Assembly: GCA_027493955.1 (NCBI GenBank)
Contig: JAOSJT010000001.1
Span: forward strand, 2,219,131 to 2,283,130
DNA length: 64,000 nt
Reading direction: 5' to 3'
From: Bacteroidia bacterium
Lineage (GTDB): Bacteria > Bacteroidota > Ignavibacteria > SZUA-365
Part shown: in pieces, positions 7,901 to 44,849 of the stretch
Numbering within the stretch: the first letter of the stretch is position 1
Layout of the letters: the number at the start of each line of letters is the position of its first letter
The notes under the pieces: generated by a model
Told to the model about the DNA's origin: nothing
The model's input: the letters and a program-made list of their open reading frames with translations, nothing else
Database searches by the model: none
Position numbers and translations under genes: made by a program

Positions 7901-8125
7901 CGTGCCAATATCTGTGGGTACGCGCACGCCCACGATCGTGAAGTCCGTCGGTGCCTGGAACCAGTATCCACGGATTTGATTGGCAGTATACGTGGAGCCG
8001 TATCCTGGCAATGGCATCATTGTCTGGGCCTGCGCCGAAAAAACCATGCAGAACAGCATGATCGGCAGAAGCACCGCGACGGCACGTCCGAGACTGCGTT
8101 TCGGGAAAAGCTTGTCGGGTATCAT
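4913..8125 (-). CDS. T9SS-exported beta-helix protein, N-terminal module type II (array member 2)
   Basis: A 1,070-residue exported protein. Signal peptide ends near residue 34 (FSAQAQ). Residues 35-198 form a predicted beta-sandwich module (RGYWFQAPTDFTIVGVRVP, CNIDIKAGDYIAIFGTR) found otherwise only in the next gene. A CARDB-like domain starts at NDAGIESIDSPKDFC, the beta-helix at about 308, dockerin-like loops near 871 and the sorting domain near 978. The helix contains an exceptionally Tyr-rich stretch (encoded at about 6230-6630) with 30 Tyr in 133 residues. AAGGAG lies about ten bases before ATG 8125; a weak leader motif (CTCCAC) is at 8154. Near-duplicate of the gene starting at 12171, with similarity extending into the 3' hairpin. 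Function beyond export is not predictable. Confidence 0.93.
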   Translation of the reverse strand: MIPDKLFPKRSLGRAVAVLLPIMLFCMVFSAQAQTMMPLPGYGSTYTANQIRGYWFQAPTDFTIVGVRVPTDIGTTPQNVQIIRFAAGPPPVYAASTSAHTTLGLWTNVNTTTMIPCNIDIKAGDYIAIFGTRTNGANMNNSYATPAGPYNSSILGFPVTLTRMVYQAGSYPVAAVSQEVSGSIARTEMYYTTTVTGPNDAGIESIDSPKDFCAGAHDVKVTLRNYGTNQLTSATINWTLNSVAQPTVNWTGLLDTLNLTTRQTQVTLGNRTFASGVPYNITVWTTMPNGVADTINKNDTAIVNVKAAISGTYTIGGASPDYPTIAAAVADLNANGVCGPVVFNIRNGSYPTNVELGAISGTSAVNTVTFQSESGNKGDVTLTHAATSTTNNFVVKFNGASWITFRNLTMTATNVSYSTVVDLSGTSTNNLVENCELVSLPSTSTSTYNAVVYSPSGASKPDNTFLRCGIRNGSFGMYVFGSNTTSTMNNFRVEGCEFTGQYYYPTYFYYVGELKFFDNRVIQNYGYIYKYVFMSYYGFNTQVERNVFVADGGAYQYGVYLYYDNYYQAGNSRFVNNMIVGRNATTYAYSAARMYYCNDLYFAHNTITMSGTYASGYALYTYYGANSRYLNNIIEHSGAGYAWYVLPGTNVVESDYNNIRSNGANLAYWNGNRANLAALQVASGKDGNSVSKPVSFADPATGNLHLVAPSDDDDDLIGMLLPSVTDDIDKEPRVRPYMGADEACYLIANSLNYEFVDGSGNPIGYIELPGTVGVHYRVIFPDFDATITMTANFYSVPGNQLVYSETFSANKLAGQPLDGTSYFNLPANLPTGYYKIELVFNTKNSCGYYRNYMPYPTSLLLVPLGATPCEVWPGDVNNDGVVNYTDRKDLNEYIHDANLSTQWLNGPARYRADAVQNPLTYIQWQPQASAPWFTAMGCYMDADGNGVVNNFDYLAIKLNWMKQHGGVTPRNDAGFAPTTFDMSQNFPNPFNPTTTIQYSVPEPSRVHLRVVDMLGRVVATAVDGIVETGIHQYTFDATNLPSGQYMAIVNMTGNESGLSFSKTIKMTLNK

Positions 8126-8958: not shown

Positions 8959-11900
8959 TTACTTGTTCAGCGTCATCTTGATGGTTTTCGAGAAGCTCAG
9001 GCCGCTTTCGTTGCCCGTCATGTTCACGATGGCCATGTACTGGCCACTCGGGAGATTCGTGGCGTCGAACGTGTACTGATGAATGCCTGTTTCCACGATG
9101 CCGTCCACCGCTGTCGCAACGACGCGGCCCAGCATGTCGACCACGCGCAAATGCACGCGGCTCGGCTCGGGCACGCTGTACTGAATGGTCGTCGTCGGAT
9201 TGAACGGATTCGGGAAGTTCTGGCTCATGTCGAAGGTCGTCGGCGTGAAGCCGTCACCGTTGCGCGGAGCCACACCACCATGCTGGCGCATCCAGTTGAG
9301 CTTGATCGCGATGTAGTCGAAGTTGTTCACCACACCGTTGCCGTCCGCATCCATGTAGCAGCCCATGGCCGTGAACCACGGAGCGCTGGCCTGCGGCTGC
9401 CATTGAATATAGGTCAATGGATTCTGCACGGCATCAGCCCTGAAGCGGGCGGGTCCGTTCAGCCACTGCGTGCTCAAATTGGCGTCATGGATGTACTCGT
9501 TCAGATCCTTGCGGTCCGTGTAGTTCACCACGCCGTCGTTGTTCACGTCGCCCGGCCACACTTCGCAGGGCGTTGCGCCAAGGGGCACAAGCAGCAACGA
9601 AGTGGGATACGGCATGTAGTTGCGGTAATAGCCGCAGCTGTTTTTTGTGTTGAACACCAGCTCGATTTTGTAATACCCTGTCGGCAGGTTCGCCGGCAGA
9701 TTGAAGTATGAGGTGCCGTCCAGCAGCTGACCGGCCAGCTTGTTCGCGCTGAAGGTCTCGCTGTACATGAGCTGATTGCCCGGCACGCTGTAGAAATTCG
9801 CCGTCATCGTGATGGTCGCGTCGAAGTCCGGGAAAATCACGCGGTAATGGACGCCCACGGTTCCGGGAAGTTCGATGTAACCGATCGGATTGCCGCTGCC
9901 GTCCACGAATTCGTAGTTCAGGCTGTTGGCGATCAGATAACAGGCCTCGTCGGCACCCATATACGGACGCACGCGCGGCTCCTTGTCAATGTCGTCGGTC
10001 ACCGTCGGAAGCAATGTACCGATCAGATCGTCGTCGTCGTCCGACGGCGCGATCAGGTGCAGATTTCCTGTTGCGGGATCCGCGAAGCTCACGGGCTTGC
10101 TGACGGAATTCGCATCCATCGCGGACGCCGCCTGGAGAGCTGCGAGATTCGCGCGGTTACCGTTCCAGTATGCGAGATTGGCACCAGAGGAAAGGATATT
10201 ATTGTAGTCCGATTCGACAACGTTCGTCCCGGGCGTCACATACCACGCGTAGCCGGCGCCTGAATGCAATACGATGTTGTTCAGATACCGTCCATTCGCG
10301 CCGTAGTAGGTGTACAGTGCGTACCCGGATGCGTAGGTCCCATCCATGATGATGGAATTGTGCGCAAAATAGAGGTCGTTGCAGTAGTACATGCGCGCAG
10401 CGGAATACGCGTAGGTCGTGGCGTTGCGGCCCACGATCATGTTGTTGACGAAACGGGAATTGCCCGCCTGATAGTAGTTGTCGTAGTAGAGATACACGCC
10501 GTACTGGTATGCACCACCATCCGCGACGAACACGTTGCGCTCAACACGCGTGTTGAAGCCGTAGTACGACATGAACACGTACTTGTAGGTGTAGCCGTAG
10601 TCCTGGATTACGCGGTTGTCGAAGAATTTCAATTCACCGACATAGTAGAAATACGTCGGATAGTAATACTGACCGGTGAATTCGCAGCCCTCGACGCGGA
10701 AGTTGTTCATTGTGGACGTTGTGCCGGAGCCGTAAATGTACATGCCGAAGCTGCCGTTGCGGATGCCGCAACGGAGGAAGGTATTGTTGGGCTTACCGGC
10801 GCCGGACGGTGAATTCACGACGGCATTGTACGTCGAGGTGGAAGTGCTCGGGAGACTGACGAGTTCGCAGTTCTCCACGAGGTTGTCGGTGGAGGTCCCG
10901 GCCAGTTCCACCACCGTGCTGTACGAAACGTTCGTCGCGGTCATGGTGAGATTCCTGAACGTGACCCACGAAGCACCGTTGAACTTGACAACGAAGTTGT
11001 TCGTGGTCGAGGTCGCCGCATGCGTCAGCGTTACATCTGCTTTGTTGCCGGATTCGGACTGGAAGGTCACGGTGTTGACGGCGGACGTGCCGGAGATGGC
11101 ACCGAGCTCCACATTGGTGGGATAGCTGCCGTTGCGGATATTGAATACCACAGGACCACAGACGCCATTCGCATTCAGATCGGTCACCGCCGCTGCGATG
11201 CTCGGATAATCCGGAGAAGCGCCGCCGATAGTATACGTTCCCGAAATGGCCGCTTTCACGTTCACGACCGCCGAATCATTTTTGTTGATCGTATCGGCAA
11301 CACCATTCGGCATGGTTGTCCAGACGGCGATATTGTACGGCACGCCGGAAGCGAAGGAACGGTTGCCGAGCGTAACCTGTGTCTGACGGGTGGTCAGATT
11401 GAGCGTATCGAGCAACCCTGTCCAGTTCACCGCAGGCTGCGCAACGCTGTTCAGTGTCCAGTTGATTGTCGCGCTGGTGAGCTGATTCGTACCATAGTTG
11501 CGGAGAGTCACCTTCACATCATGGGTACCGGCGCAGAAATCTTTCGGAGAATCGATGGAGACGATCCCCGCATCGTTGGGGCCGGTAACCGTCGTCGTGT
11601 AATACATTTCCGTGCGGGCAATCTGGCCGCTGACTTCCTGCGAGACATCTGTCACGGGGAAGGAGCCGGCCTGATACACCATGCGTGTCAGTGTAACGGG
11701 ATAGCCGAGGATACTCGAATTGAACGGTCCCGCCGGTGTGGCGTAGGAGTTGTTCATGTTGGTACCGTTGTTGCGCGTACCAAAAATCGCGATGTAGTCA
11801 CCCGACTTGATGTCGATGTTACAAGGGATGATGGTCGTGGTATTGACATTGGTCCACAGTCCCAAAGTCGTATGGGCGTTCGTGGATGTGGCGTATACCG

Positions 11901-12171
11901 GAGGAGGACCGGCGGCGAAGCGGATGATTTGCACGTTCTGCGGTGTCGTACCGATATCCGTCGGTACGCGTACGCCTACGATCGTGAAGTCCGTCGGCGC
12001 CTGGAACCAATAGCCGCGGATTTGAGAAGATGTGTAGGTGGAACCGTAGCCCGGCAATGGCATCATTGTCTGGGCCTCTGCCTGGGACAGGACTCCAAAG
12101 ATCAATGCCGGCAGGACAAGCAGATACAGCTTCCTGAACGATCTGTGGAGAATCGGATTGTCATTCATCAT
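8959..12171 (-). CDS. T9SS-exported beta-helix protein, N-terminal module type II (array member 3)
   Basis: 1,070 residues, same length and layout as the gene starting at 8125 and nearly identical to it along its whole length, including the type II N-terminal module. Signal peptide ends SQAEAQ. Differences are scattered substitutions, for example INKNDSAVV against INKNDTAIV and VVELAGTSTDN against VVDLSGTSTNN. AAAAGGAG precedes tandem ATG codons at 12171 and 12168; I keep the first, but either could serve. The leader element is at 12204-12210 (AATCCAC in minus sense). Dockerin-like loops and sorting domain are intact (ends SKTIKMTLNK). It appears to be the product of a tandem duplication with the preceding gene. 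Confidence 0.93.
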   Translation of the reverse strand: MMNDNPILHRSFRKLYLLVLPALIFGVLSQAEAQTMMPLPGYGSTYTSSQIRGYWFQAPTDFTIVGVRVPTDIGTTPQNVQIIRFAAGPPPVYATSTNAHTTLGLWTNVNTTTIIPCNIDIKSGDYIAIFGTRNNGTNMNNSYATPAGPFNSSILGYPVTLTRMVYQAGSFPVTDVSQEVSGQIARTEMYYTTTVTGPNDAGIVSIDSPKDFCAGTHDVKVTLRNYGTNQLTSATINWTLNSVAQPAVNWTGLLDTLNLTTRQTQVTLGNRSFASGVPYNIAVWTTMPNGVADTINKNDSAVVNVKAAISGTYTIGGASPDYPSIAAAVTDLNANGVCGPVVFNIRNGSYPTNVELGAISGTSAVNTVTFQSESGNKADVTLTHAATSTTNNFVVKFNGASWVTFRNLTMTATNVSYSTVVELAGTSTDNLVENCELVSLPSTSTSTYNAVVNSPSGAGKPNNTFLRCGIRNGSFGMYIYGSGTTSTMNNFRVEGCEFTGQYYYPTYFYYVGELKFFDNRVIQDYGYTYKYVFMSYYGFNTRVERNVFVADGGAYQYGVYLYYDNYYQAGNSRFVNNMIVGRNATTYAYSAARMYYCNDLYFAHNSIIMDGTYASGYALYTYYGANGRYLNNIVLHSGAGYAWYVTPGTNVVESDYNNILSSGANLAYWNGNRANLAALQAASAMDANSVSKPVSFADPATGNLHLIAPSDDDDDLIGTLLPTVTDDIDKEPRVRPYMGADEACYLIANSLNYEFVDGSGNPIGYIELPGTVGVHYRVIFPDFDATITMTANFYSVPGNQLMYSETFSANKLAGQLLDGTSYFNLPANLPTGYYKIELVFNTKNSCGYYRNYMPYPTSLLLVPLGATPCEVWPGDVNNDGVVNYTDRKDLNEYIHDANLSTQWLNGPARFRADAVQNPLTYIQWQPQASAPWFTAMGCYMDADGNGVVNNFDYIAIKLNWMRQHGGVAPRNGDGFTPTTFDMSQNFPNPFNPTTTIQYSVPEPSRVHLRVVDMLGRVVATAVDGIVETGIHQYTFDATNLPSGQYMAIVNMTGNESGLSFSKTIKMTLNK

Positions 12172-12887: not shown

Positions 12888-15800
12888 TTATTTATTCAGC
12901 GTCATCTTGATGGTCTTCGAGAAGCTCAGACCGCTTTCGTTGCCCGTCATGTTCACGATGGCCAGGTACTGACCGCTCGGAAGATTCACGGCGTCGAAGG
13001 TGCACTGATGCACACCAGCTTCCACGATACCGTCCACCGCCGTGGCCACAACGCGGCCCAGCATATCCACCACGCGCAGATGCACGCGGCTCGGCTCGGG
13101 TACGCTGTACTGAAGCACCGTCGTCGGATTGAACGGATTCGGGAAGTTCTGACTCATGTCGAAGGTCGTCGGTGTGAAGCTGTCGCCGAAGCGCGGTGTC
13201 ACGCCGCCGTGCTGCTTCATCCAGTTGAGCTTGATGGCGAGGTAGTCGAAGTTGTTCACCACGCCGTTACCATCGGCATCCATGTAGCAGCCCATGGCCG
13301 TGAACCACGGAGCGCTCGCCTGCGGCATCCACTGAATGTAGGTCAGCGGATTCTGCACGGCGTCGGCGCGGTAGCGGGCGGGACCTGTGAGCCACTGCGT
13401 GCTCAGGTTTGCGTCATGGATGTACTCGTTGAGATCCTTGCGGTCGGTGTAGTTCACCACGCCGTCGTTGTTCACGTCGCCCGGCCACACTTCGCAGGGT
13501 GTCGCACCGAGGGGCACGAGCAGCAGCGACGAGGGATACGGCATGTAGTTGCGGTAGTAACCGCAGCTGTTCTTCGTGTTGAACACCAGCTCGATTTTGT
13601 AGTACCCAGAGGGCAGCGAGGCCGGCAGGTTGAAGTACGACGTGCCGTTCAACTCCTGATTGGCCAGCTTGTTCGCGCTGAACGTCTCGCTGTACATGAG
13701 CTGATTGCCCGGCACGCTGTAGAAATTCGCCGTCATCGTGATCGTCGCGTCAAACGGCGGGAAAATCACACGGTAGCGCACGCCGATCGTTCCGGGAAGT
13801 TCGATGTAACCGATCGGATTGCCGGAGCCATCCACGAAATCGTAGGTCAGGCTGTTGGCGATCAGATAGCAGGCCTCGTCGGCGCCCATGTACGGACGCA
13901 CGCGCGGTTCGAGGTCGATGTCGTCTACGACGCTTGGGAGCGTCACGCCGATCAGATCGTCGTCGTCGTCAGAGGGAGCGACAAGATGCAGGTTGCCCGC
14001 AAACGGATCCGCGAAGCTCACCGGCTTGCTCACTGAATTCGCGTCGCGGCCCGAAGCCACCTGAAGTGCCGCGAGATTGGCGCGGTTGCCACCCCAGTAC
14101 GCGAGATTGGCGCCGGTCGTGTACCAGTTGTTGTGATCGGACTCGACCACGTTTGTTCCGGGAACGACATACCAGGCAAAACCCGCACCGGTGTTCATGA
14201 CGATGTTGTTCACATAGCGATTATTCGCTCCGTAATACGAATACAGTGTATACGTGGATGTGTACGGACTCTCAACGCGGATTGAATTGTGCGCGAAGAG
14301 CATGTCCTGACAGTAGTACTGATTGATGCCGTAATACGCCGTCGCGACGTTGCGTATCGTAATCATGTTGTTCACGTAGCGCGAAGTACCCGCCTGATAG
14401 TAGTTGTCGTAGTACATGTACATGCCGTATGCGGTGGAGCCGCCGTCCGAGAGGAACACATTGCGCTCCATCTGCGTCGCGAAGCCGTACATGAAATAGC
14501 CCAGATACTTCGTCGCATAGGCCGAATTGTTCACCACCTTGTTGCCGATGAATTTGAGCTGGCCCAGGTAATAGAAATACACCGGGAAGTAGTACGCGCC
14601 GGTAATCTCGCAGTTCTCGACACGCAGATTGTTCATGGTCGAGGTCGTGCCGCCTCCGTACAGGTACATACCGAATCCGCCGTTACGGATATTGCAGTTT
14701 CTGAAGGTCATATTGTGTGCGATGGTGCCGGTATTGGAGCGAACCACCGCGTTATTGGTCGAAGTCGAGGCGACCACCGGTGAATTCAGGTCGCAACCTT
14801 CGGTTGTACAGTCATTCGAACCGCCGGTAATCTCGACGACGGTGCTGAACGATGTGCTTGTCGCGTTCATCGTCATGTTCTTGAACGTGGTAAACTTCGC
14901 ACCGCCGAAACGGAGGACGAAATTGTTCGTTGTGGATGTGGCGGCAAAGTTGATGATCACGTCCGCTTTGTTTCCGCTTTCCGACTGGAACGTCACCGTA
15001 TTCACCGCCGAGGCGCCGGGAATATTCAGAAGATCGATGTTCGTGTTGTACGTGCCGCTCCGCACGTTGAACAGCACCGGACCGCAGATACCATTGGTGG
15101 TCAGATCGGCGATCGCGGCGGCGAAGGTCGGATAATCCGGCGATGCGCCGCCGATGGTGTACGTGCCGCTGATGGCCGCCTTCAAATTCGCACGCAATGT
15201 GTCATTCTGCAGGAAGCTGTCGGCGACGTTGTTGGGCTGCGAAGTCCAAACGGCGAGTGGATAGGTAATTCCGGGTGCGAAGGTCCGTGTCCCCAGAGTC
15301 AGGTCTACCTCGGTCAGCGTCGGGATGGGCGTGTTGTACGCAATCGGCGTTTGGGGGACACCGTCAAATGACCAGTTGACGGTCACATTGTTCACCGTAT
15401 TCGTGCCGAAATTGCGCAATTTCACCTTGATGTCGTGCGTACCGGTGCAGAAGTTCACCGGGGAAATCAGCGCGGAAATACCGGCATCATCCGGCAACGC
15501 GGGACTGAGATAGAAACCGAAATTGGCGCGATAGCTGGACGTGAATCCGGCCGGTGTCGTCGTGGAGCATCCGAGCGGCCCACCGTAGATACGGCCCACG
15601 TTCGGTATGGTATGCGCTCCTCCGTCATAGACGGCGAAACCCGCACCAGCGGTAACGCCCTCGCTGCATATTTGCACGATAAGTGTCTGGGCGGGATTAT
15701 AGTAGAATGGTGTCGTGAGCTGTATCTCGAACCATTGCCCCGCCGCGCCTGCGGGAACGGTGTAGGACGTGGCATACAGGGCCTGCGTCATGGGAGAAAA

Positions 15801-16148
15801 GAACTGATTTGTCGGAAAATTCGTCAGGGAGGATTGACCGAGATACACGCCAAAGTTGGAGAAGGTCGTCGCTGATGTGGCCTGATAGCGTTGAAAGTAT
15901 ACGCGGCTGATGTTGCCGGCGTACGCTCCGGTGAAAAGACCGGCTTGATAAAAACCCTGCCACTTCTGCCAGGTAGTTGAAACGTTTGGATTCCAGGGGA
16001 TGTTGTTCCCGCCGGTTGCCAGACCGTAATAATACGGTGGTGTCTGAGCCTGAACCGGGTTGTGGAAGGCGAGTATGGACAAAGCGAAAGTAAGCAGCAC
16101 GCAAACTCCAAGCAGCCATCCGCCAGAAATGCGGATCAGTTGATTCAT
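12888..16148 (-). CDS. T9SS-exported beta-helix protein, N-terminal module type III (array member 4)
   Basis: 1,086 residues. Signal peptide ends near 35 (HNPVQAQ). The type III module (36-223) carries YYYGLATGGNNIPWNPN, GAYAGNI and the signature LTTPFYYNP followed by QICSEG. CARDB-like domain from DDAGISALISPVNFC (about 224), beta-helix from about 328, SDDDDDLIG near 728, dockerin-like loops from about 888, sorting domain from about 996. The terminal domain has HQCTFDAVNLPSGQ, a Cys where sister proteins have Tyr or Phe. AAGGAG precedes ATG 16148 and the leader motif is at 16167-16174. Shares module and exact length with the next three genes, but its helix differs from theirs at many positions. 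Ligand unknown. Confidence 0.93.
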   Translation of the reverse strand: MNQLIRISGGWLLGVCVLLTFALSILAFHNPVQAQTPPYYYGLATGGNNIPWNPNVSTTWQKWQGFYQAGLFTGAYAGNISRVYFQRYQATSATTFSNFGVYLGQSSLTNFPTNQFFSPMTQALYATSYTVPAGAAGQWFEIQLTTPFYYNPAQTLIVQICSEGVTAGAGFAVYDGGAHTIPNVGRIYGGPLGCSTTTPAGFTSSYRANFGFYLSPALPDDAGISALISPVNFCTGTHDIKVKLRNFGTNTVNNVTVNWSFDGVPQTPIAYNTPIPTLTEVDLTLGTRTFAPGITYPLAVWTSQPNNVADSFLQNDTLRANLKAAISGTYTIGGASPDYPTFAAAIADLTTNGICGPVLFNVRSGTYNTNIDLLNIPGASAVNTVTFQSESGNKADVIINFAATSTTNNFVLRFGGAKFTTFKNMTMNATSTSFSTVVEITGGSNDCTTEGCDLNSPVVASTSTNNAVVRSNTGTIAHNMTFRNCNIRNGGFGMYLYGGGTTSTMNNLRVENCEITGAYYFPVYFYYLGQLKFIGNKVVNNSAYATKYLGYFMYGFATQMERNVFLSDGGSTAYGMYMYYDNYYQAGTSRYVNNMITIRNVATAYYGINQYYCQDMLFAHNSIRVESPYTSTYTLYSYYGANNRYVNNIVMNTGAGFAWYVVPGTNVVESDHNNWYTTGANLAYWGGNRANLAALQVASGRDANSVSKPVSFADPFAGNLHLVAPSDDDDDLIGVTLPSVVDDIDLEPRVRPYMGADEACYLIANSLTYDFVDGSGNPIGYIELPGTIGVRYRVIFPPFDATITMTANFYSVPGNQLMYSETFSANKLANQELNGTSYFNLPASLPSGYYKIELVFNTKNSCGYYRNYMPYPSSLLLVPLGATPCEVWPGDVNNDGVVNYTDRKDLNEYIHDANLSTQWLTGPARYRADAVQNPLTYIQWMPQASAPWFTAMGCYMDADGNGVVNNFDYLAIKLNWMKQHGGVTPRFGDSFTPTTFDMSQNFPNPFNPTTVLQYSVPEPSRVHLRVVDMLGRVVATAVDGIVEAGVHQCTFDAVNLPSGQYLAIVNMTGNESGLSFSKTIKMTLNK

Positions 16149-16684: not shown

Positions 16685-16717
16685 AAGTCCCGCCCCGCTT
16701 TAAGCGGGACGGGACTT
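16685..16717 (-). terminator. GC hairpin after array member 5
   Basis: Stem CAAGTCCCG-CCCGC with GCGGG-CGGGACTTG, TTTA in the loop, 30 bases after the stop at 16747. Part of a hairpin family with a TCCCGCCCC core seen after several array genes. Confidence 0.6.
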
Positions 16718-16746: not shown

Positions 16747-19700
16747 TTACTTGTTCAGCGTCATCTTTACGGTCTTCGAGAAGCTCAGGCCGCTTTCGTT
16801 GCCCGTCATGTTCACGATGGCCAGGTACTGACCGCTCGGAAGATTCACGGCGTCGAAGGTGTACTGATGCACGCCGGCTTCCACGATACCGTCAACGGCC
16901 GTCGCCACAACGCGGCCCAGCATGTCCACCACGCGCAGATGCACGCGGCTCGGCTCGGGGACGCTGTACTGCAGCACCGTCGTCGGATTGAACGGATTCG
17001 GGAAGTTCTGGCTCATGTCGAAGGTCGTCGGTGCGAAGCTGTCGCCCAGGCGCGGAGCCACGCCGCCGTGCTGGCGCATCCAGTTGAGCTTGATGGCGAG
17101 GTAGTCGAAGTTGTTCACCACGCCGTTACCGTCGGCATCCATGTAGCAGCCCATCGCCGTAAACCACGGAGCGCTCGCCTGCGGCATCCACTGAATGTAG
17201 GTCAGCGGATTCTGCACCGCGTCGGCGCGGTAGCGGGCCGGACCGTTGAGCCACTGCGTGCTCAGGTTCGCGTCATGGATGTACTCGTTGAGATCCTTGC
17301 GGTCCGTGTAGTTGACCACGCCGTCGTTGTTCACGTCGCCCGGCCACACTTCGCACGGCGTCGCGCCATTGGGCACGAGCAGCAGCGACGAGGGATACGG
17401 CATGTAGTTGCGGTAGTAGCCGCAGCTGTTCTTCGTGTTGAACACCAGCTCGATCTTATAGTAACCCGAGGGCAGCGAGGCCGGCAGATTGAAGTACGAC
17501 GTGCCGTTCAGATCCTGATTGGCCAGCTTGTTCGCGCTGAACGTCTCGCTGTACATGAGCTGATTGCCCGGCACGCTGTAGAAATTCGCCGTCATCGTGA
17601 TCGTCGCGTCGAACGGCGGGAAAATCACGCGGTAGCGCACGCCGATCGTTCCGGGAAGTTCGACGTACCCGATCGGATTGCCTGAGCCGTCCACGAAGTC
17701 GTAGGTCAGGCTGTTGGCGATCAAATAGCAGGCCTCGTCGGCGCCCATGTACGGACGCACGCGCGGTTCGAGATCGATGTCGTCTGTCACCTGCGGCAGA
17801 AGCACGCCGATCAGATCGTCATCGTCGTCGGAGGGAGCGACCAGATGCAGATTCCCGGACATCACATCGGCAAAGCTCACAGGCTTGCTGACCGATTGCG
17901 CATCCTGTCCGGAGGCGGCCTGAAGCGCTGCCAGATTCGCGCGCGCCGCGCCCCAGTACGCCAGATTCGCTCCGGCGCTATACCAGTTGTTGTCATTTGA
18001 TGCGGTAACGTTGGTACCGGGCGCCACGTACCAGGCGTAGCCGGCGCCGGTGTGCATGACGATGTTGTTGCGGTACGTGTTGTTGGCGCCGTAGTACGAG
18101 TACAGCGCGTAACCGCTCGCGTACCCGCTCTCGACGCGGATAGTGTTATGCGCGAACAGGCTGCCGTTGCTGTAATAGTGATTGATGCCGTAATAGGCGT
18201 TCGTCACGTTGCGCACGGTTATCATGTTGTTGACGATGCGCGACATGCCCGCCTGATAGTAGTTGTCGTAGTAAATGTACAGACCGTACGCGGTCGAGCC
18301 ACCGTCGCTCACGAAGGTATTGCGCTCGATTTGCGTATTGAAGCCGTACATCAGGTAGCCGAGATACTTCGTGGCGTAGGCGGAATTCTGGACGATCTTG
18401 TTGCCGATGAGCTTGAGTTCGCCGAGATAATAGAAATACAGCGGGAAGTAGTACATGCCCGTGATCTCGCAGTTCTCCACGCGGAGATTGTTCATCGTCG
18501 AAGTCGTGCTCGAGCCGTAGAGGTACATACTGTAGGCGCCGTTGCGGATATTGCAGCCGCGGAAGGTCATGTTATGCGCGAGGGTGCCCGTGTTGGAACG
18601 CACCACGGCGTTGTTCGTCGACGTGGAGGTCGCCGGAAGACTGTTCAGATCACAGCCCTCCACCGTACAGTCGTTCGAGCTGCCGGTCACTTCCACGACG
18701 GTGCTGTAGGACACGTTGGTGGCGTTCAGCGTCATGTTCTTGAACGTCACGAATTTCGCACCACCGAAGCGGAGGACGTAATTGTCCGTCGTCGACGTCG
18801 CGGCGTAATTGATGATCACATCCGCGCGGTTACCGGTTTCGGATTGGAACGTGACCGTATTCACCGCCGAGGCGCCGGGAATATTCAGAAGATCGATCTT
18901 GGTCGTGTACGTGCCGCTTCGGACATTGAACACCACGGGACCGCAGATACCGTTCGTGGTCAGATCCGCGATCGCCGCGGCGAAGGTGGCGTAGTTAGGC
19001 GACGCACCGCCAATGGTGTATGTGCCACTCACGGCCGCTTTCAGGTTCGCGCGCAGCGTGTCATTCTGCATGAAGCTGTCGGCGACGTTGTTTGGCTGCG
19101 AGGTCCACACCGCCAGAGGATAGCTGATACCGGAGGCGAAGGTCCGCGTACCCAGGGTCAGATCCACTTCCGTGAGCGTCGGGATTGGCGTGTTGTACGC
19201 AATCGGCGTTTGGGGGACACCGTCAAATGACCAGTTGACGGTCACGTTGTTCACCGTATTCGTACCGAAATTACGCAACTTCACCTTGATGTCGTGCGTA
19301 CCGGTGCAGAAATTCACCGGAGAAATCAGCGCGGAAATACCGGCATCATCCGGCAACGCCGGACTGAGATTGAAGCCGAAATTGGCGCGATAGCTGGAGC
19401 TGTAGCCGACCGGGGCCGTGGCGCTGCAACCACCGGGACCGCCGTACATACGTGTGACGTTGGGAGTTGAGGCCGCAGCGCCGTCATTGATTGCGAAGCC
19501 GGTTCCGGCCGTCACACCCTCGGAGCAAATCTGCACGATGAGAGTTTGATTCGGATTATAGTAAAAAGGTGTTGTGAGGACGATTTGGAACCACTGTCCG
19601 GCCGAACCCGCCGGAATCGTGTAACTCGCCTGATACAGACATTGCTGCATGGGTGAGAAGAACTGGTTCGTGGGGAAGGTGGTCAGCGATGATTGGCCGA

Positions 19701-20007
19701 TAAACACCCCGAAATTCGAGTATGTCGTTCCCGTGGTCGCCGCATTGCGTTGGAAAAACACGCTCGTGATATTACCGGCATACGCTCCTGTAAACAGGTT
19801 CGCATTGTAATACTGCTGCCACTTCTGCCAACCGGTGGAGAGGTTGGGATTGAAGGGGATGGAGTTGCCTCCCGAAGCCAGGTTGAAGAAATACTGTGGG
19901 GTCTGTGCCTGAACCGTGTTCTGGAAAAGCGACACAGAAATGAGAAGAACGAGAAGCATACAAGCTCCAAGCAGCCGTACGCTCGTAAAGCGGTGCGGTA
20001 GATTCAT
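16747..20007 (-). CDS. T9SS-exported beta-helix protein, N-terminal module type III (array member 5)
   Basis: 1,086 residues from ATG 20007 (MNLPHRFTSVRLLG). GAGGAG and the leader motif at 20025-20032 support this start; an upstream ATG at 20103 would put 32 non-signal residues before the signal peptide. Type III module with QTPQYFFNLASGGNSIPFN and LTTPFYYNP. CARDB-like domain, beta-helix, dockerin-like loops and sorting domain are as in its neighbours. Its 3' 2,126 bp (16747-18872) match 36157-38282 in array member 10 with about a dozen mismatches and no indel. In this block the two proteins differ by one residue (NNMITVRN against NNMISVRN), yet their N-terminal modules are of different types. 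Gene conversion or recombinational module exchange is the simplest reading. Confidence 0.93.
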   Translation of the reverse strand: MNLPHRFTSVRLLGACMLLVLLISVSLFQNTVQAQTPQYFFNLASGGNSIPFNPNLSTGWQKWQQYYNANLFTGAYAGNITSVFFQRNAATTGTTYSNFGVFIGQSSLTTFPTNQFFSPMQQCLYQASYTIPAGSAGQWFQIVLTTPFYYNPNQTLIVQICSEGVTAGTGFAINDGAAASTPNVTRMYGGPGGCSATAPVGYSSSYRANFGFNLSPALPDDAGISALISPVNFCTGTHDIKVKLRNFGTNTVNNVTVNWSFDGVPQTPIAYNTPIPTLTEVDLTLGTRTFASGISYPLAVWTSQPNNVADSFMQNDTLRANLKAAVSGTYTIGGASPNYATFAAAIADLTTNGICGPVVFNVRSGTYTTKIDLLNIPGASAVNTVTFQSETGNRADVIINYAATSTTDNYVLRFGGAKFVTFKNMTLNATNVSYSTVVEVTGSSNDCTVEGCDLNSLPATSTSTNNAVVRSNTGTLAHNMTFRGCNIRNGAYSMYLYGSSTTSTMNNLRVENCEITGMYYFPLYFYYLGELKLIGNKIVQNSAYATKYLGYLMYGFNTQIERNTFVSDGGSTAYGLYIYYDNYYQAGMSRIVNNMITVRNVTNAYYGINHYYSNGSLFAHNTIRVESGYASGYALYSYYGANNTYRNNIVMHTGAGYAWYVAPGTNVTASNDNNWYSAGANLAYWGAARANLAALQAASGQDAQSVSKPVSFADVMSGNLHLVAPSDDDDDLIGVLLPQVTDDIDLEPRVRPYMGADEACYLIANSLTYDFVDGSGNPIGYVELPGTIGVRYRVIFPPFDATITMTANFYSVPGNQLMYSETFSANKLANQDLNGTSYFNLPASLPSGYYKIELVFNTKNSCGYYRNYMPYPSSLLLVPNGATPCEVWPGDVNNDGVVNYTDRKDLNEYIHDANLSTQWLNGPARYRADAVQNPLTYIQWMPQASAPWFTAMGCYMDADGNGVVNNFDYLAIKLNWMRQHGGVAPRLGDSFAPTTFDMSQNFPNPFNPTTVLQYSVPEPSRVHLRVVDMLGRVVATAVDGIVEAGVHQYTFDAVNLPSGQYLAIVNMTGNESGLSFSKTVKMTLNK

Positions 20008-20032
20008 ATGAATCTCCTCATGGTGTGGATGA

Positions 20033-20544
20033 GATATGTGAAAGAACAGATTCTCGGAAGCGTCATCGTCTCTGATTGCACGCATCGCTTGCCGAATTCT
20101 CACTCGCGCGGTGTGTCAGGGACTTGTTTGACGGGATGCGTAACATCCGACATCAGACCCGAAACTCGGATGAAGAGGTGTGAGGGTCCAAAATATCACG
20201 GATATGGTAACTCTTTTGTTAAGAAAATGCAAATGCTTCATTCATCCAGTCAGAATCCCAGTCTGAAAGTCCTGTCAGAAAAGACAATTCTATATGTCAC
20301 TACTCTCAATCATGATCGGGTTTCGTTCTGTGGGTATCGCGAAACCGGCATTTTGCACCGGGCCCATCATCCAACAGCGCATCGGGATGCAAATGCGATG
20401 TACCATCGCGGAGGAACCGTTGACTCCGCTGCAATGCAGCTTCGGCAGGATGATACGACGACGCGCGCTTTCCCAGCGTGCGAGTATCCTCCGCGCAGAG
20501 AAAACCTGACGGTTCCGCTCCCCGCTTTACACCCCATATAGCGA
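20033..20544. other. Intergenic region
   Basis: No gene supported. A plus frame covers 20008-20541 but lacks homology and a ribosome-binding site. No perfect GTGA-N7-TCAC site; the closest is a GTGA at 20180 and a TCAC near 20197 with too long a spacer. Confidence 0.4.
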
Positions 20545-20602: not shown

Positions 20603-23600
20603 TTATTTGTTCAGCGTCATCTTGATGGTCTTCGAGAAGCTCAATCCGCTTTCGTTGCCCGTCATGTTCACGATGGCCATGTACTGACCGCTCGGAAGGT
20701 CTGTAGCGTCGAAGGTGAACTGATGGACGCCGGCTTCCACGATGCCGTCCACCGCCGTCGCAACAACGCGGCCCAGCATGTCCACCACGCGCAGATGCAC
20801 GCGACTCGGCTCGGGAAGGCTGTACTGCAACGTCGTCGTCGGATTGAACGGATTCGGGAAGTTCTGGCTCATGTCGAACGTCGTCGGAGTGAAGCCAACG
20901 TCACTACGGGGTGTGACACCGCCATGCTGCTTCATCCAGTTGAGCTTGATGGCCAGGTAGTCGAAGTTGTTGACCACACCGTTACCGTCGGCGTCCATAT
21001 AACACCCCATGGCGGTAAACCACGGAGCGCTGGCCTGCGGCTGCCATTGCAGGTAGGTCAATGGATTCTGCACGGCGTCCGCGCGATAGCGGGCAGGACC
21101 ATTCAGCCACTGCGTGCTCAGATTCGCGTCGTGGATGTACACGTTCAGGTCCTTGCGGTCTGTGTAATTCACCACGCCATCGTTGTTCACGTCACCGGGC
21201 CATACCTCGCAGGGTGTCGCACCAAGCGGCACAAGCAGCAGCGACGAGGGATACGGCATGTAATCGCGATAGTAGCCGCAGCTGTTCTTGGTGTTGAACA
21301 CCAACTCGATCTTATAGTAGCCCGAAGGCAGCGACGCCGGGAGGTTGAAATACGCCGTACCGTCGAGGTCCTGATTGGCCAGCTTCGTGTCGCTGAAGGT
21401 TTCGCTGTACATAAGCTGATTGCCCGGCACACTATAGAAGTTCGCCGTCATCGTGATCGTCGCATCGAACGGCGGGAAAATAACGCGATAATGCACACCG
21501 ATGGTACCCGGAAGTTCGATATAGCCGATGGGATTGCCACTGCCGTCCACGAAGTCGTACTGCAGACTGTTGGCGATCAGATAGCAAGCCTCGTCGGCGC
21601 CCATGTACGGTCGTACACGCGGTTCTTCGTCAATATCCTCCGTCACTTCCTGGAGCAGAACACCGATGAGATCGTCGTCGTCGTCCGAGGGAGCGACCAG
21701 ATGCAAGTCGCCGGTGAACGCATCCGCGAAACTCACCGGCTTGCTCACCGAAGCACCGTCCATACCGGACGCCGCCTGCAGAGCGGCGAGATTGTTGCGG
21801 TTACCGTTCCAATACGCGAGATTCGCACCTGTTCCGTAAATGTTGTTGTTATTCGATTCGACGATGTTGGAACCGGGAAGCACATACCATGCATACCCCG
21901 AACCGGTGTTCAGAAGCATGTTGTTGAGAAAGCGATTTCCGCTTCCGTAGTAGGAATATATCGCACGGCCGGAAGTATAGGGGCTCTCGAGAATCACCGT
22001 GTTATGCGCGAACAGTGTGTTCGTCGCGTAGTAGTGATTGATGCCGTACACACCGGTGTTGACGCCGCGCACCGTGATCATGTTGTTGACGATGCGCGAG
22101 CTGCCGGCCTGATAGTAGTTGTCGTAGTAAATGTACATGCCGTACGCCGTGGATCCGCCACTGGACAGGAAGACGTTCCGCTCCATCTGCGTATTGAAGC
22201 CGTACATGAAATAGCCGAGATACTTGGTGGAGTACGGGGAGGTGTTCTCCACGCGGTTGCCGATGAATTTCATTTCACCGAGGTAGTAGAAGTACAGCGG
22301 GAAGTAATACGCCCCGGTGATCGCGCAGTTCTCGACGCGCAGGTTGTTCATCGTGCTGGTCGTGCTGCCACCATAGAGATACATTCCGAAACCACCATTG
22401 CGGATGTTGCAGTCGAGAAAGGTCATGTTATGCGCGAGCGTACCGGTTGGCGATCGAACCACCGCGGTATTCGTCGAGGTGGATGCCACCACGGGAGCGT
22501 TCAGGTCGCAGCCCTCCACCGTACAGTCGCTGGAACTGCCGGTGACCTCGACCACCGTGCTGAACGATGTACTGGTGGCATTCAACGTCATATTCCGGAA
22601 GGTGGTGAATTTCGCGCCGCCGAAACGAAGCACGAAGTTGTTCGTCGTGCTTGTCGCCGCATAGTTGATGATCACGTCGGCTTTGTTTCCGGTCTCGGAT
22701 TGGAAGGTCACGGTATTCACCGCCGAAGCGCCGGGTATATTCTGGAGATCTATGTTCGTGTTGTACGTCCCGCTTCGCACATTGAACGTCACGGGTCCGC
22801 AAATGCCGTTGGCTACCAGATCCGCTATCGCCGCGGCGAAAGTCGGATAGTCCGGCGAAGCTCCGCCGATGGTGTATGTACCGCTCACCGCAGCTTTCAG
22901 ATTCGCGACAAGGGAGTCATTTGCCGAGAAGCTGTCCGCGACATTGTTCGGCTGCGATGTCCATACCACGAGGGGATAACTGATTCCGGAGGCAAAGGTC
23001 CGGGTACCCAGAGTCAGGTCCACCTCGGTGAGGGTCGGGATGGGCGTGTTGTACGCGATCGGCGTCTGCGGTACACCGTCGAAGCTCCAGTTCACGGTCA
23101 CGTTGTTCAGGGTGTTGGTGCCGAAGTTCCGCAGCTTCACCTTGATGTCATGCGTCCCGGCACAGAAATTCACCGGTTCCAGCAACGCGGAGATGCCCGC
23201 GTCATCGGGCAGCGCCGGACTGAGATTGAAGCCGAAATTTGCGCGATAGCTGGAACTGGAACCGGACGGAGAGGTCGCGTTGCAGCCGCCCGGACCACCC
23301 CACATGCGTGTCACATTCGGCGATGAAGCAGCGGCTCCATCAAGCATGGCGAATCCCGCCCCGGCGGTTACACCTTCGCTGCATATTTGAATGATGAGCG
23401 TCTGATTGGGATTATAGTAAAACGGCGTGGTCAGGACAATCTGGAACCAGGTATTGGTCGCACCAGCAGGTATGGTGTAACTGGCCTGATACAGGCATTG
23501 CTGTACGGGCGTGAAAAACTGATTCGTCGGGAAAGTAGTCGCGGACGATTGTCCGATGTACACTCCGAAATTTGAGAACGTTGTTCCGGAGGTCGCTTGC

Positions 23601-23863
23601 CAACGCTGGAAATACACACTGGTGATGTTTCCGGCGTAGGCGCCGGTGAACAGCCCTGCATTATAGTAGCCCTGCCATTTCTGCCAGGAAGTGGAAAGAT
23701 TTGGATTGAAGGGGATATTGTTCCCCCCCGTCGCCGAACCGAAGTAATACTGCGGCGTTTGCGCCTGCACCTCGCCATCGAATGCGATACAGAATAGCAT
23801 CGCAAGAACCAGGAAGAGCCCGGCTGACCTGCCGGCTATTTTCCGTGTATCGTGTTTCGTCAT
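20603..23863 (-). CDS. T9SS-exported beta-helix protein, N-terminal module type III (array member 6)
   Basis: 1,086 residues. Signal peptide ends near 35 (GEVQAQ). Type III module QTPQYYFGSATGGNNIPFN. CARDB-like domain variant DDAGISALLEPVNFCAGT, and helix with ASTSTNTAVVRSPTG. The dockerin-like first loop is followed by RKDLNVYIHD, where the others have NEYIHD. The sorting domain has YSLPEPSR instead of YSVPEPSR. AGGAG lies nine bases before ATG 23863. The leader element is the weakest of the set (CACCCACGATC, at about 23883-23893). Two operator candidates lie upstream (23955 and 24093). Exported by T9SS judging from the terminal domain; function otherwise unknown. Confidence 0.93.
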   Translation of the reverse strand: MTKHDTRKIAGRSAGLFLVLAMLFCIAFDGEVQAQTPQYYFGSATGGNNIPFNPNLSTSWQKWQGYYNAGLFTGAYAGNITSVYFQRWQATSGTTFSNFGVYIGQSSATTFPTNQFFTPVQQCLYQASYTIPAGATNTWFQIVLTTPFYYNPNQTLIIQICSEGVTAGAGFAMLDGAAASSPNVTRMWGGPGGCNATSPSGSSSSYRANFGFNLSPALPDDAGISALLEPVNFCAGTHDIKVKLRNFGTNTLNNVTVNWSFDGVPQTPIAYNTPIPTLTEVDLTLGTRTFASGISYPLVVWTSQPNNVADSFSANDSLVANLKAAVSGTYTIGGASPDYPTFAAAIADLVANGICGPVTFNVRSGTYNTNIDLQNIPGASAVNTVTFQSETGNKADVIINYAATSTTNNFVLRFGGAKFTTFRNMTLNATSTSFSTVVEVTGSSSDCTVEGCDLNAPVVASTSTNTAVVRSPTGTLAHNMTFLDCNIRNGGFGMYLYGGSTTSTMNNLRVENCAITGAYYFPLYFYYLGEMKFIGNRVENTSPYSTKYLGYFMYGFNTQMERNVFLSSGGSTAYGMYIYYDNYYQAGSSRIVNNMITVRGVNTGVYGINHYYATNTLFAHNTVILESPYTSGRAIYSYYGSGNRFLNNMLLNTGSGYAWYVLPGSNIVESNNNNIYGTGANLAYWNGNRNNLAALQAASGMDGASVSKPVSFADAFTGDLHLVAPSDDDDDLIGVLLQEVTEDIDEEPRVRPYMGADEACYLIANSLQYDFVDGSGNPIGYIELPGTIGVHYRVIFPPFDATITMTANFYSVPGNQLMYSETFSDTKLANQDLDGTAYFNLPASLPSGYYKIELVFNTKNSCGYYRDYMPYPSSLLLVPLGATPCEVWPGDVNNDGVVNYTDRKDLNVYIHDANLSTQWLNGPARYRADAVQNPLTYLQWQPQASAPWFTAMGCYMDADGNGVVNNFDYLAIKLNWMKQHGGVTPRSDVGFTPTTFDMSQNFPNPFNPTTTLQYSLPEPSRVHLRVVDMLGRVVATAVDGIVEAGVHQFTFDATDLPSGQYMAIVNMTGNESGLSFSKTIKMTLNK

Positions 23864-24454: not shown

Positions 24455-27400
24455 TTACTTGTTCAGCGTCATCTTGATGGTCTTCGAGAAGCTCAGGCCG
24501 CTTTCGTTGCCCGTCATGTTCACGATTGCCATGTATTGACCGCTCGGGAGATTCGCGGCGTCGAAGGTGTACTGATGCACGCCGGCTTCCACGATACCGT
24601 CAACGGCCGTGGCCACAACGCGGCCCAGCATATCCACCACGCGCAGATGCACGCGGCTCGGCTCGGGGACGCTGTACTGCAGCACCGTCGTCGGATTAAA
24701 CGGATTCGGGAAGTTCTGGCTCATGTCGAACGTCGTCGGGGCAAAGCTGTCGCCCAGGCGCGGGGCCACGCCGCCGTGCTGCTTCATCCAGTTGAGCTTG
24801 ATGGCGAGGTAGTCGAAGTTGTTGACTACGCCGTTACCGTCGGCGTCCATGTAGCAGCCCATGGCCGTGAACCACGGAGCGCTCGCCTGCGGCATCCACT
24901 GAATGTAGGTCAGCGGATTCTGCACGGCGTCCGCGCGGTAGCGGGCGGGACCGGTGAGCCACTGCGTGCTCAGATTGGCGTCATGGATGTACTCGTTGAG
25001 ATCCTTGCGGTCGGTGTAGTTCACCACGCCGTCGTTGTTTACGTCGCCCGGCCACACTTCGCAGGGCGTCGCGCCGAGGGGCACGAGCAGCAGCGACGAC
25101 GGATACGGCATGTAGTCGCGATAGTAGCCGCAGCTGTTCTTCGTGTTGAACACGAGTTCAACCTTGTAGTAGCCCGAGGGCAGCGAGGCCGGCAGATTGA
25201 AATACGCCGTTCCATCGAGATCCTGATTGGCCAGCTTGTTCGCGCTGAACGTCTCGCTGTACATGAGCTGATTGCCCGGCACGCTGTAGAAGTTCGCCGT
25301 CATCGTGATCGTCGCGTCAAACGGCGGGAAAATCACGCGATAGTGCACGCCGACGGTCCCCGGCAACTCCACGTAGCCGATGGGATTGCCGCTGCCGTCC
25401 ACGAAGTCGTACTGCAGGCTGTTGGCGATCAGGTAGCAGGCCTCGTCGGCACCCATGTACGGACGCACGCGCGGTTCAAGATCGATGTCGTCTGTCACCT
25501 GCGGCAGAAGCACGCCAATGAGATCGTCATCGTCGTCCGAGGGAGCAACCAGGTGCAGATTACCCGTGAAGGCATCGGCGAAGCTCACCGGCTTGCTCAC
25601 CGAGGCGCCGTCCATGCCCGATGCCGCTTGCAGCGCTGCGAGGTTGGCACGGTTGGCGTTCCAGTAGGCGAGGTTTGCGCCCGTGGAATAGATGTTATTG
25701 TTATCCGACTCGACGATGTTCGAGCCGGGGAGTACGTACCAGGCATAGCCCGCGCCCGTGTTGAGTATCATGTTGTTCAGGTAGCGGTTACCACTGCCGT
25801 AGTACGAGTAGATCGCCCTGCCGGAAGTGTAGGGGCTCTCAAGAATCACGGTGTTATGAGCGAAGAGCGTGTTCGTCGCATAATAGTGGTTGATGCCGTA
25901 CTGGCCGGTGTTCACATTGCGCACGGTGATCATGTTATTGACGATACGCGAATTGCCGGCCTGATAGTAATTGTCGTAGTAAATGTAGATGCCATACGCG
26001 GTGCTGCCTCCGCTGGATAAGAAGACGTTCCGTTCCATCTGCGTATCGAAGCCGTACATGAAGTAGCCAAGATACTTCGTGGCATAGGGGGACGTGTTTT
26101 CCACGCGGTTCCCGATGAACTTGAGCTGTCCGATATAGTACAGATACACCGGGAAGTAGTATGCACCGGTCAAGCTACAATTCTCGACGCGCAAATTGTT
26201 CATCGTTGCGGTTGTACTGGCTCCGAAAATGTACATGCCGTAGCTGCCGTTGCGGATATTGCAGTCGCGGAAGGTAGTGTTGTGATTCATGGTGCCGCTG
26301 GTACCGAAAATCACCGCGTTGTTCGTCGAGGTCGAGGTGGCCACGAGACTGTTGAGGTCGCAACCTTCGACTGTGTTGTCCGAGGAACTCCCGCTGAGCT
26401 GCACGACCGTGCTGAACGAAACATTCGTCGCGTTCAAGGTCATGTTCTTGAACGTCACGAACTTCGCGCCACCAAAACGGAGGACGAAATTGTTGGTGGT
26501 CGAAGTCGCCGCCCAATTGATGATCACATCCGCCTTGTTGCCGGTCTCGGACTGGAAGGTGATGGTGTTGACGGCTGAAGCACCCGGAATGCTTTGCAGG
26601 TCGATGTTGGTGGAATAGGTCCCGCTCCGCACATTGAACGTTACAGGTCCGCAAATACCGTTGGCCACCAGATCAGCGATAGCAGCGGCAAATGTCGGGT
26701 AGTCGGGAGATGCGCCACCTATGGTATACGTGCCGCTTACCGCCGCCTTCAGACTCGCGGTGAGGGAGTCGTTCGGTGTGAAGCTGTCAGCGACGTTGTT
26801 CGGCTGTGACGTCCAGACGGCGAGCGGATAGGTGATACCGGAGGCAAAGGTCCGGGTACCCAGGGTAAGATCCACTTCGGTGAGCGTCGGGATGGGTGTA
26901 TTGTACGCAATCGGAGTCTGAGGCACACCGTCAAAGCTCCAGTTTACGGTCACGTTGTTCAAGGTGTTGGTACCGAAGTTGCGCAATTTCACTTTGATCT
27001 CATGCGTACCGGTGCAGAAATTCATCGGGGAGATCAGAGCGGAGATGCCTGCATCGTCCGGCAAGGCCGGGCTGAGATTGAAGCCGAAATTGGCGCGATA
27101 ACTGGAGCTGGATCCCGATGGCGAGGCCGTGTTGCAGCCACCCGGACCGCCCCACATTCGCGTGACGTTGGGCGTTGCGGCGGCCGCACCATCGTTCATG
27201 GCAAAGCCGGTCCCTGCCGTCACACCCTCGGAGCAAATCTGCACGATGAGCGTCTGATTCGGATTATAGTAAAACGGCGTCGTCAGGACGATCTGGAACC
27301 ATTGACCGGCCGAGCCGGCGGGGATGGTGTAGCTGGCCTGGTAGAGACCTTGCTGCATGGGAGAGAAAAACTGATTCGTCGGGAAGGTGGTCGACGAGGA

Positions 27401-27715
27401 TTGGCCGAGATACACGCCGAAATTGGAGTATGTCGTTCCGGACGTCGCCTGATTGCGCTGGAAGAACACGCTCGTGATATTGCCGGCATAGGCGCCGGTG
27501 AAGAGTCCTGCGTTATAGTAACCCTGCCATTTCTGCCAGGACGTCGAAAGGTTCGGATTGAAAGGGATGGAATTTCCACCGGTAGCGAGACCGAAGGAAT
27601 ATTGCGGGGTCTGCGCTTGCGCATCCTCCGGAAGGGTGAAGCCGGCGAACAACGCCACAACGAGAAAACAGACAACCGTTTTCACGGATGACTGCACTGT
27701 AAGGGCTCTTCTCAT
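24455..27715 (-). CDS. T9SS-exported beta-helix protein, N-terminal module type III (array member 7)
   Basis: 1,086 residues from ATG 27715 (MRRALTVQSSVKTVV), chosen because AGGAG lies eight bases upstream and the signal peptide (ending EDAQAQ) begins there; the open frame continues to 27826 without a signal-like start. Type III module QTPQYSFGLATGGNSIPFN. From the beta-helix onward it closely follows array member 8: both have VVQLSGSSSDNTVEG, AVIFGTSGTMNHNTTF and the same terminal 350 residues with few changes. The N-terminal module of member 8, however, is type IV. A leader variant (CTCATCTAC) is at 27735-27743 and an operator candidate is at 27812. Confidence 0.93.
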   Translation of the reverse strand: MRRALTVQSSVKTVVCFLVVALFAGFTLPEDAQAQTPQYSFGLATGGNSIPFNPNLSTSWQKWQGYYNAGLFTGAYAGNITSVFFQRNQATSGTTYSNFGVYLGQSSSTTFPTNQFFSPMQQGLYQASYTIPAGSAGQWFQIVLTTPFYYNPNQTLIVQICSEGVTAGTGFAMNDGAAAATPNVTRMWGGPGGCNTASPSGSSSSYRANFGFNLSPALPDDAGISALISPMNFCTGTHEIKVKLRNFGTNTLNNVTVNWSFDGVPQTPIAYNTPIPTLTEVDLTLGTRTFASGITYPLAVWTSQPNNVADSFTPNDSLTASLKAAVSGTYTIGGASPDYPTFAAAIADLVANGICGPVTFNVRSGTYSTNIDLQSIPGASAVNTITFQSETGNKADVIINWAATSTTNNFVLRFGGAKFVTFKNMTLNATNVSFSTVVQLSGSSSDNTVEGCDLNSLVATSTSTNNAVIFGTSGTMNHNTTFRDCNIRNGSYGMYIFGASTTATMNNLRVENCSLTGAYYFPVYLYYIGQLKFIGNRVENTSPYATKYLGYFMYGFDTQMERNVFLSSGGSTAYGIYIYYDNYYQAGNSRIVNNMITVRNVNTGQYGINHYYATNTLFAHNTVILESPYTSGRAIYSYYGSGNRYLNNMILNTGAGYAWYVLPGSNIVESDNNNIYSTGANLAYWNANRANLAALQAASGMDGASVSKPVSFADAFTGNLHLVAPSDDDDDLIGVLLPQVTDDIDLEPRVRPYMGADEACYLIANSLQYDFVDGSGNPIGYVELPGTVGVHYRVIFPPFDATITMTANFYSVPGNQLMYSETFSANKLANQDLDGTAYFNLPASLPSGYYKVELVFNTKNSCGYYRDYMPYPSSLLLVPLGATPCEVWPGDVNNDGVVNYTDRKDLNEYIHDANLSTQWLTGPARYRADAVQNPLTYIQWMPQASAPWFTAMGCYMDADGNGVVNNFDYLAIKLNWMKQHGGVAPRLGDSFAPTTFDMSQNFPNPFNPTTVLQYSVPEPSRVHLRVVDMLGRVVATAVDGIVEAGVHQYTFDAANLPSGQYMAIVNMTGNESGLSFSKTIKMTLNK

Positions 27716-27811
27716 ACTGAAAACTCCTGAAAATGTAGATGAGTGGGGTCGCAGTGCTGGAGGGGTACCGAAATACCCGCTACGGCCGAAAAGCTGTTCA
27801 ATTCCCAAATC

Positions 27812-27826
27812 GTGAAGTATTTTCAC
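27812..27826. promoter_or_regulatory. Candidate operator, GTGA-N7-TCAC palindrome
   Basis: GTGAAGTATTTTCAC, flanked C/G (CGTGAA...TTCACG is symmetric over six bases), 97 bases upstream of the start at 27715. Confidence 0.55.
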
Positions 27827-35690: not shown

Positions 35691-35719
35691 GGTACCTCCG
35701 AATGTGATTGTGGATGATG

Positions 35720-36098
35720 CAGATGTACGAATCATTGTATGTGGCCAGCTCGTCGGCGTTCGGCGGGCTCGGAAGAGAGAGGAAATGACCGGTTGTGTTG
35801 CCAGGTTCCAACAACCGGCTTCATTTAGCTAAAATAAATGGAAACAGCTACCTCTCCCAATAAGGAGAAGCGGCAATTTCGCACAATAATAAACGACACA
35901 TCAGATGCCGAAAAGTTACAGGGGAAAATGTTCTCAGATGCTCCCTTTCGTCGGATGCTCACGCATTTTCGAATAGGATGGTTATGATTCGTTGCGGGGC
36001 AACCGTGCGAGCGGCCACAGAGGGGGGGCTGTGTACGGTTACGGGATGCCGGCTTGGTAGGTCTACACGCCTTTTTCCTTCCCTATTCGCACAGAAAA
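35720..36098. other. Intergenic region
   Basis: No gene supported and no operator palindrome seen. Partly AT-rich (35820-35990). Confidence 0.4.
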
Positions 36099-36133
36099 AG
36101 CGCATCCCGCCCTGGCAGTGGGCGGGATGCGCT
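36099..36133 (-). terminator. Rho-independent terminator of array member 10
   Basis: AGCGCATCCCGCCC paired with GGGCGGGATGCGCT (14-bp stem, 7-base loop), followed on the minus strand by TTTTCTGTG, a short T-run. 23 bases after the stop at 36157. Confidence 0.75.
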
Positions 36134-39378: not shown

Positions 39379-39696
39379 ACGACCTCCAAGCAGATAGAGA
39401 GTGGATGAGAATATGTATTTGAATCTCGAGGTTTGCTGTGGATGAGCTTCCTCGTCCCGATCTTTGAAAAACCAATCGGGTGGTGCGCCTATTTTGTCAA
39501 TCAGTAAAAAATACATGAAATCAGCATCCTTCGCAAGTCCGAAAAACTGTCTCGGATGGATAGAAATGGGACCTTGGGGGCGCGCAAGTCGAGGGCACTA
39601 GGAGGCTATCCTCCCGCGCCGACGATACCACTCGTGGTTTCGGACGCCTCGTATCGGGTCGATCCATTCTTGCATTTCGCTTTGGTCTCGAGTTGG

Positions 39697-41411: not shown

Positions 41412-41438
41412 GATTTGCCTCATGGATTGGGTGGATGA

Positions 41439-44428: not shown

Positions 44429-44849
44429 ACGAAACTCCTGAATGAGTAGATGTGAATGAGCGAAAATTCCGTGCTCTGCAACAAGCCGACTCTGCCACAC
44501 TGAAAATATTCCGAGGAAATTTCTGTGAACAAGGAGCCGGGAAGTCCGTCCGGATGTACGGACACGAATGAGAAATCGAAAATAACTTTAACAATTTACA
44601 TGCGTGGCGAATAATTCACAAGGGTGAAAATTAGTACCACACTGGCGCTCTCGGAGGGTGTCCAGAAGGACGAACACGAAGCGCAGAACTGTGTACGGGG
44701 AGCGCAAAAAGAAATAATCACAACGTCAAGCGTTGACAGATGTTCTCCCGTGTTGCAGTCCCTTATCGAGAATTTTCGGAGAGCTTCCGTACGCAGGCCC
44801 AGCCCCAATACTGCGCGACATCCCGCACACCTTCACGCATGCACAAAAA

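Follow-up and report, generated by a model that had tools for sequence, protein, structure and literature searches.

We identified a nearly identical 3' portion in two genes, w5 and w10, of a tandem array encoding surface proteins, and we consider it very probable that one of these members overwrote the 3' two-thirds of the other by RecA-type homologous gene conversion. A tract that starts in the first rungs of the beta-helix and ends at the stop codon would have been copied, in one direction or the other, between two tandem genes for T9SS-exported surface proteins. Conversion of this kind may serve to keep the helix, stalk and sorting tail uniform and the divergent N-terminal heads apart.

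The window, that is, the whole stretch of DNA that was analysed (64,000 nucleotides), comes from a genome represented by a single 5.24-Mb contig (100% complete). The initial annotation had described an array of 10 members. The family proved larger, with 13 tandem minus-strand genes (genome positions 2208629-2258646) and a dispersed copy, D (1412366-1415629), 0.8 Mb away. We refer to the members as U3, U2, U1, w1-w10 and D; 10 lie wholly within the window and three start upstream of it (Table 1). All 14 are intact open reading frames with a signal-peptide-like N-terminus, followed in the family layout by a variable head, an Ig/CARDB-like domain, a beta-helix, a linker, a dockerin-like motif and a T9SS sorting tail. 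The name CARDB/Ig-like for the second domain of w5 was given by eye and from predicted beta strands, without a Pfam match. The dockerin-like motif of w5 reaches 26.5 bits with Dockerin_1 (cut-off 22.9), and its tail reaches 23.5 bits with Por_Secre_tail, under the cut-off of 27. In single-protein scans, the sorting tails of w5, w10 and w4 match PF18962 and TIGR04183 just under the curated cut-offs, and in the genome search the PF18962 cut-off is passed by several members, including U2, U1, w1, w2, w3, w6, w7 and D. The T9SS machinery is present in the genome, with SprA (about 1050 bits) and the PorV family both over their cut-offs.

Table 1. Positions, within the window, of the array members and of the shared tracts, protein regions and hairpins discussed in the text
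Feature	Position	Strand	Remarks
Near-identical block, w5 part	16747..18872	minus	codon 411 to stop; 11 mismatches/2126 vs 36157-38282
Near-identical block, w10 part	36157..38282	minus	11 mismatches/2126
Array member w1	1309..4476	minus	
Array member w2	4913..8125	minus	
Array member w3	8959..12171	minus	
Array member w4	12888..16148	minus	
Gene w5	16747..20103	minus	1118 aa from GTG; likelier start ATG at 20007, ahead of signal peptide
Array member w6	20603..23863	minus	
Array member w7	24455..27826	minus	
Array member w8	28596..31823	minus	
Array member w9	32451..35735	minus	
Gene w10	36157..39516	minus	1119 aa; ATG at 39378, ahead of signal peptide, may be an internal start
w5 variable head, residues 66-245, outside block	19369..19908	minus	51% DNA identity to w10, dS saturated; head tree
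w5 CARDB/Ig-like second domain, residues 246-350, outside block	19054..19368	minus	dS 1.41 vs w10; predicted strands
w5 beta-helix, residues 355-790	17734..19041	minus	predicted strand ladder; matched in part by pectin methylesterase beta-helix structures
w5 dockerin-like motif and T9SS sorting tail, residues 916-1118	16750..17358	minus	Pfam Dockerin_1, Por_Secre_tail
Second tract, w2 part, common to U1 (upstream of window)	4914..6676	minus	40 mismatches/1763; last ~1.2 kb nearly identical
Third tract, w7 part, common to w8	24615..25546	minus	18 mismatches/932
w7/w8 tract, w8 part	28756..29687	minus	
3' hairpin (terminator-like) after w5, outside block	16688..16714	minus	
3' hairpin after w10	36105..36127	minus	stem sequence different from w5 hairpin

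A sequence search of the PDB returned no relative with a solved structure, and a fold search gave partial beta-sandwich and beta-helix matches only; the model of the full-length structure has low confidence (mean pLDDT 63, pTM 0.48). The heads probably serve as binding modules, with a common helix and stalk to present them. Promoter scans yielded nothing above chance. Across the whole genome, about 149 sorting-tail matches exceed the cut-off, a very large T9SS cargo set. Clusters of open reading frames with near-equal sorting-tail scores at genome positions 2555178-2563286 and 2606209-2616737 suggest further T9SS cargo arrays, which may also be homogenised. Two shorter genes upstream in the window (39750-41423 and 42020-44500) have the dockerin-like motif and part of the tail in common (68-70% DNA identity) behind other fronts.

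Aligned column for column at an offset of 19,410, the w5 and w10 blocks comprise 2,126 bp with 11 mismatches and no indels, which bears out the ungapped block with about a dozen mismatches described initially. A maximal-segment scan recovered the same length and mismatch count, with limits from CDS nucleotide 1232 to the stop in w5 and from 1235 to the stop in w10. As the initial annotation had placed it, the 5' break falls in the first beta-helix rungs, near w5 residue 411; the last base common to both genes, 18872, comes immediately after TTCACCGCCGAGG. On the 3' side the block closes with the stop codon, beyond which the two genes are no longer homologous. Ten of the 11 differences are synonymous and one is a replacement (T to S), the single-residue protein difference already noted. 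Given these counts and a dN of 0.0006, the block implies that both copies have been under purifying selection since the event. That the event is recent, as first stated, holds in relative terms only, the block dS being 0.021 and the 11 changes having arisen since. Later micro-conversions were considered as the source of the mismatches and rejected: several of the alleles are present in other members, with no consistent donor.

Upstream of the block, dS between w5 and w10 rises to 0.63 over residues 350-411 and 1.41 over residues 246-350, and the head is saturated. Among codons for the same amino acid, 665 of 675 are identical in the block, compared with 85 of 148 just upstream (Fisher p = 4e-42). 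Both dS and same-amino-acid codon identity step at the break, and a step of this kind is not due to chance and cannot be the work of purifying selection on protein sequence. An abrupt synonymous switch (0.021 versus 0.63-1.41) inside continuous homology is instead what gene conversion leaves behind. Total identity falls in steps, from 80-87% to 76-80% and then to about 50% in the head, so that the sharp upstream divergence reported initially applies to synonymous sites and not to total identity. Import of the tract from another strain would be indistinguishable from conversion within the genome.

Repeats of 2.1 kb that are nearly identical are well known to give rise to misassembly, and the assembler might have copied or collapsed one tail onto the other. 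We regard this as very unlikely, since sequencing and collapse errors are blind to reading frame, whereas 10 of the 11 differences are synonymous (random expectation 23%, p = 3.5e-6) and none is an indel. The genome is moreover one complete contig, and like tracts recur in an independent assembly.

Past their stop codons, w5 and w10 have no sequence relationship, hairpins included, and the heads are distinct; flanking markers were not exchanged. These features also bear on a scenario in which one member was duplicated as a whole gene and then had its head and flanks replaced, which would likewise leave identical tails with different heads. Such a history has very little probability in view of the unrelated 3' flanks and hairpins, the saturation of the next domain at synonymous sites, and the lack of a near-identical donor in the genome for either head. 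No pair of heads in the genome exceeds 80.5% DNA identity, which indicates that a tail was overwritten, not that a head was newly imported from another member.

Mosaic surface proteins in an array could also reflect a programme of antigenic variation in which a single expression site draws on silent donors, but this too is highly improbable here. Each of the 14 genes is intact and has its own 3' hairpin in addition to the signal-peptide-like N-terminus, and no layout of one expression site with silent truncated donors was found among them. Copying affected the constant tail and left out the variable head, and the block has diverged too far for the event to have been within-culture switching.

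The copied piece starts inside homology and ends where homology ends, which argues for gene conversion and not for a crossover, the alternative offered in the initial annotation. Direct repeats 19 kb apart are able to cross over, but the product of a single reciprocal or unequal crossover would carry DNA beyond the tail; the unrelated flanks of w5 and w10 rule this out, and their 3' neighbours, w4 and w9, are not near-copies. RecA is present in the genome, and we infer its pathway for the w5/w10 conversion. Since w8, to which w10 is related by its head, has itself exchanged sequence with w7, either w5 or w10 may have been the donor.

A GENECONV-like permutation test revealed further tracts, in U1/w2, w7/w8 and w9/w10, and together with sliding comparisons it gave short 3' tracts involving w9. 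For w5/w10 alone, with sites from residue 350 on, the global p is 0.005 for all sites and 0.02 for third positions, a modest significance because most of the tested stretch sits inside the block. In G006, a genome from another genus (g4) of the same family, G006_4/5/6, 3/8 and 3/7 show 3'-anchored near-identity with variable 5' ends. These tracts run to the 3' end wherever sequence is present, some G006 and G005 genes running off contig ends and lacking their 3' ends, and none includes the head. Gene conversion, as proposed in the initial annotation, is therefore supported by the synonymous break in continuous homology, the unrelated 3' flanks, and replicate tracts in this genome and in another genus. 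The w5/w10 block is one case of a family-wide and long-running process.

Trees of the two gene ends give different groupings. For the tails (residues 791-1118, 38 rows), the tree accounts for the genome labels with six changes, the smallest number possible (6/6). The head tree (residues 66-350, 47 rows) requires 18, and a single head clade for this genome (G000) is rejected (p-AU 2e-37). Tails group according to genome, whereas heads group according to type, irrespective of genus. In copy D, a head type common to G005 is joined to a tail matching the array 0.8 Mb off. The heads of w5 and w10, initially described as different types, are indeed divergent subtypes, although not unrelated: they belong to one broad head clade, in which the w8 and w10 heads nest inside the w4-w7 group. 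Codon identity within the genome is 42% at the head but 79% at the 3' end; the comparison of G000 with G005 gives 44% at the head and 62-66% at the tail. As the between-genome rise shows that part of the gradient is common, we credit only the excess within-genome rise to homogenisation.

Some members depart from the general pattern or qualify it. The tail of U2 (genome 2212102-2215602) is the most divergent, at 76% DNA identity versus about 90% for the others, and U2 has apparently escaped tail homogenisation. The head proteins of U1/U3 and w9/U2 are 88-94% identical despite fourfold sites near saturation (0.34-0.45), which marks these heads as old and strongly constrained within type. Named relatives are MAGs labelled Bacteroidetes. 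The G005 array lies near valS. In this genome valS is found at 217480, a long way from the array, and the two arrays are therefore at different locations.

Strong hairpins, specific to the family, lie 20-30 nt past the stop in all 14 members. The motif TCCCGYCCN{3,14}GGRCGGGA has 10 matches genome-wide, eight of them directly behind family members, including D. Hairpins are also found in the relatives G005, G006 and G003, with stems common to members of the same genome in G005 and G006. The identity between several G006 pairs extends beyond the stop codon and across the hairpin, ending immediately behind it; that of w5/w10 ends ahead of the hairpin. The simplest reading is that the terminator is part of the conserved unit. 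The hairpin could additionally act as an initiator or boundary of recombination, with breaks or stalled forks starting conversion at the 3' end. We consider this unlikely, but if true it would explain 3'-anchored tracts, variable 5' ends and permanently spared heads. The 3' anchoring, the variable 5' ends and the stop of homology at the terminator hairpin in relatives would also suit cDNA-mediated conversion primed from the mRNA 3' end; its probability is close to nil, as simple loss of homology outside the gene accounts for the boundary and no match to the reverse transcriptase family PF00078 was detected in the genome by a search that was positive in control genomes. On the same evidence, copying by reverse transcriptases of the DGR, retron and similar kinds was rejected.

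Under homologous gene conversion, the heads may be spared because their divergence blocks strand exchange, because selection keeps them different, or both. We read the overall pattern as concerted evolution that acts on the sorting tail, the stalk and the beta-helix, the heads in front of them being ancient and divergent. Concerted evolution would then be limited to one gene end, a situation replicated across genera, with a common export tail, stalk and helix and private heads. Trees and family counts drawn from such surface-protein tails reflect genome identity and not gene ancestry; for function, the heads are the parts to compare. The array is furthermore a naturally occurring case in which to study why conversion does not reach the head.

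Related behaviour is known from other bacteria. In the account given by PMC3960876 (citing Pride & Blaser 2002), Helicobacter pylori babA/babB and homA/homB have 3' segments alike within a strain and 5' parts alike between strains, a pattern ascribed there to concerted evolution through intragenomic conversion, most likely RecA-dependent. Compared with that description, the array likewise has a 3' part homogenised within the genome and a 5' part that follows gene type across genomes. The H. pylori genes are described there as outer-membrane adhesins at two or three loci, whereas the present family has 13 tandem genes and a dispersed copy, with T9SS tails, a beta-helix and a dockerin-like motif, and its pattern spans genera where the one reported for H. 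pylori spans strains.

In Porphyromonas gingivalis, the gingipain/HagA proteins are likewise exported to the surface by the T9SS, and they diversify through recombination and the rearrangement of domains (PMC5266723). That study deals with adhesin domains and with allelic exchange between strains; in the present array, homogenisation acts on the tail that the paralogues have in common. Borrelia vlsE or vmp similarly involve gene conversion among surface-protein copies, as cassette antigenic variation, and relapsing-fever Borrelia have inverted repeats near a downstream homology block (PMC4534519). Unlike in those systems, no silent cassettes or expression site were found in the array, and all copies are intact genes. 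Long-lasting concerted evolution is described as rare in prokaryotes, with 26 genes reported, most of them characterised as key members of important pathways (PMC6053082). As in those cases, paralogues within the genome are closer than orthologues between genomes; unlike them, the effect is limited to the 3' part of the genes in a surface-protein family. The array is thus a well-replicated new example of the already known concerted evolution of 3' gene ends.
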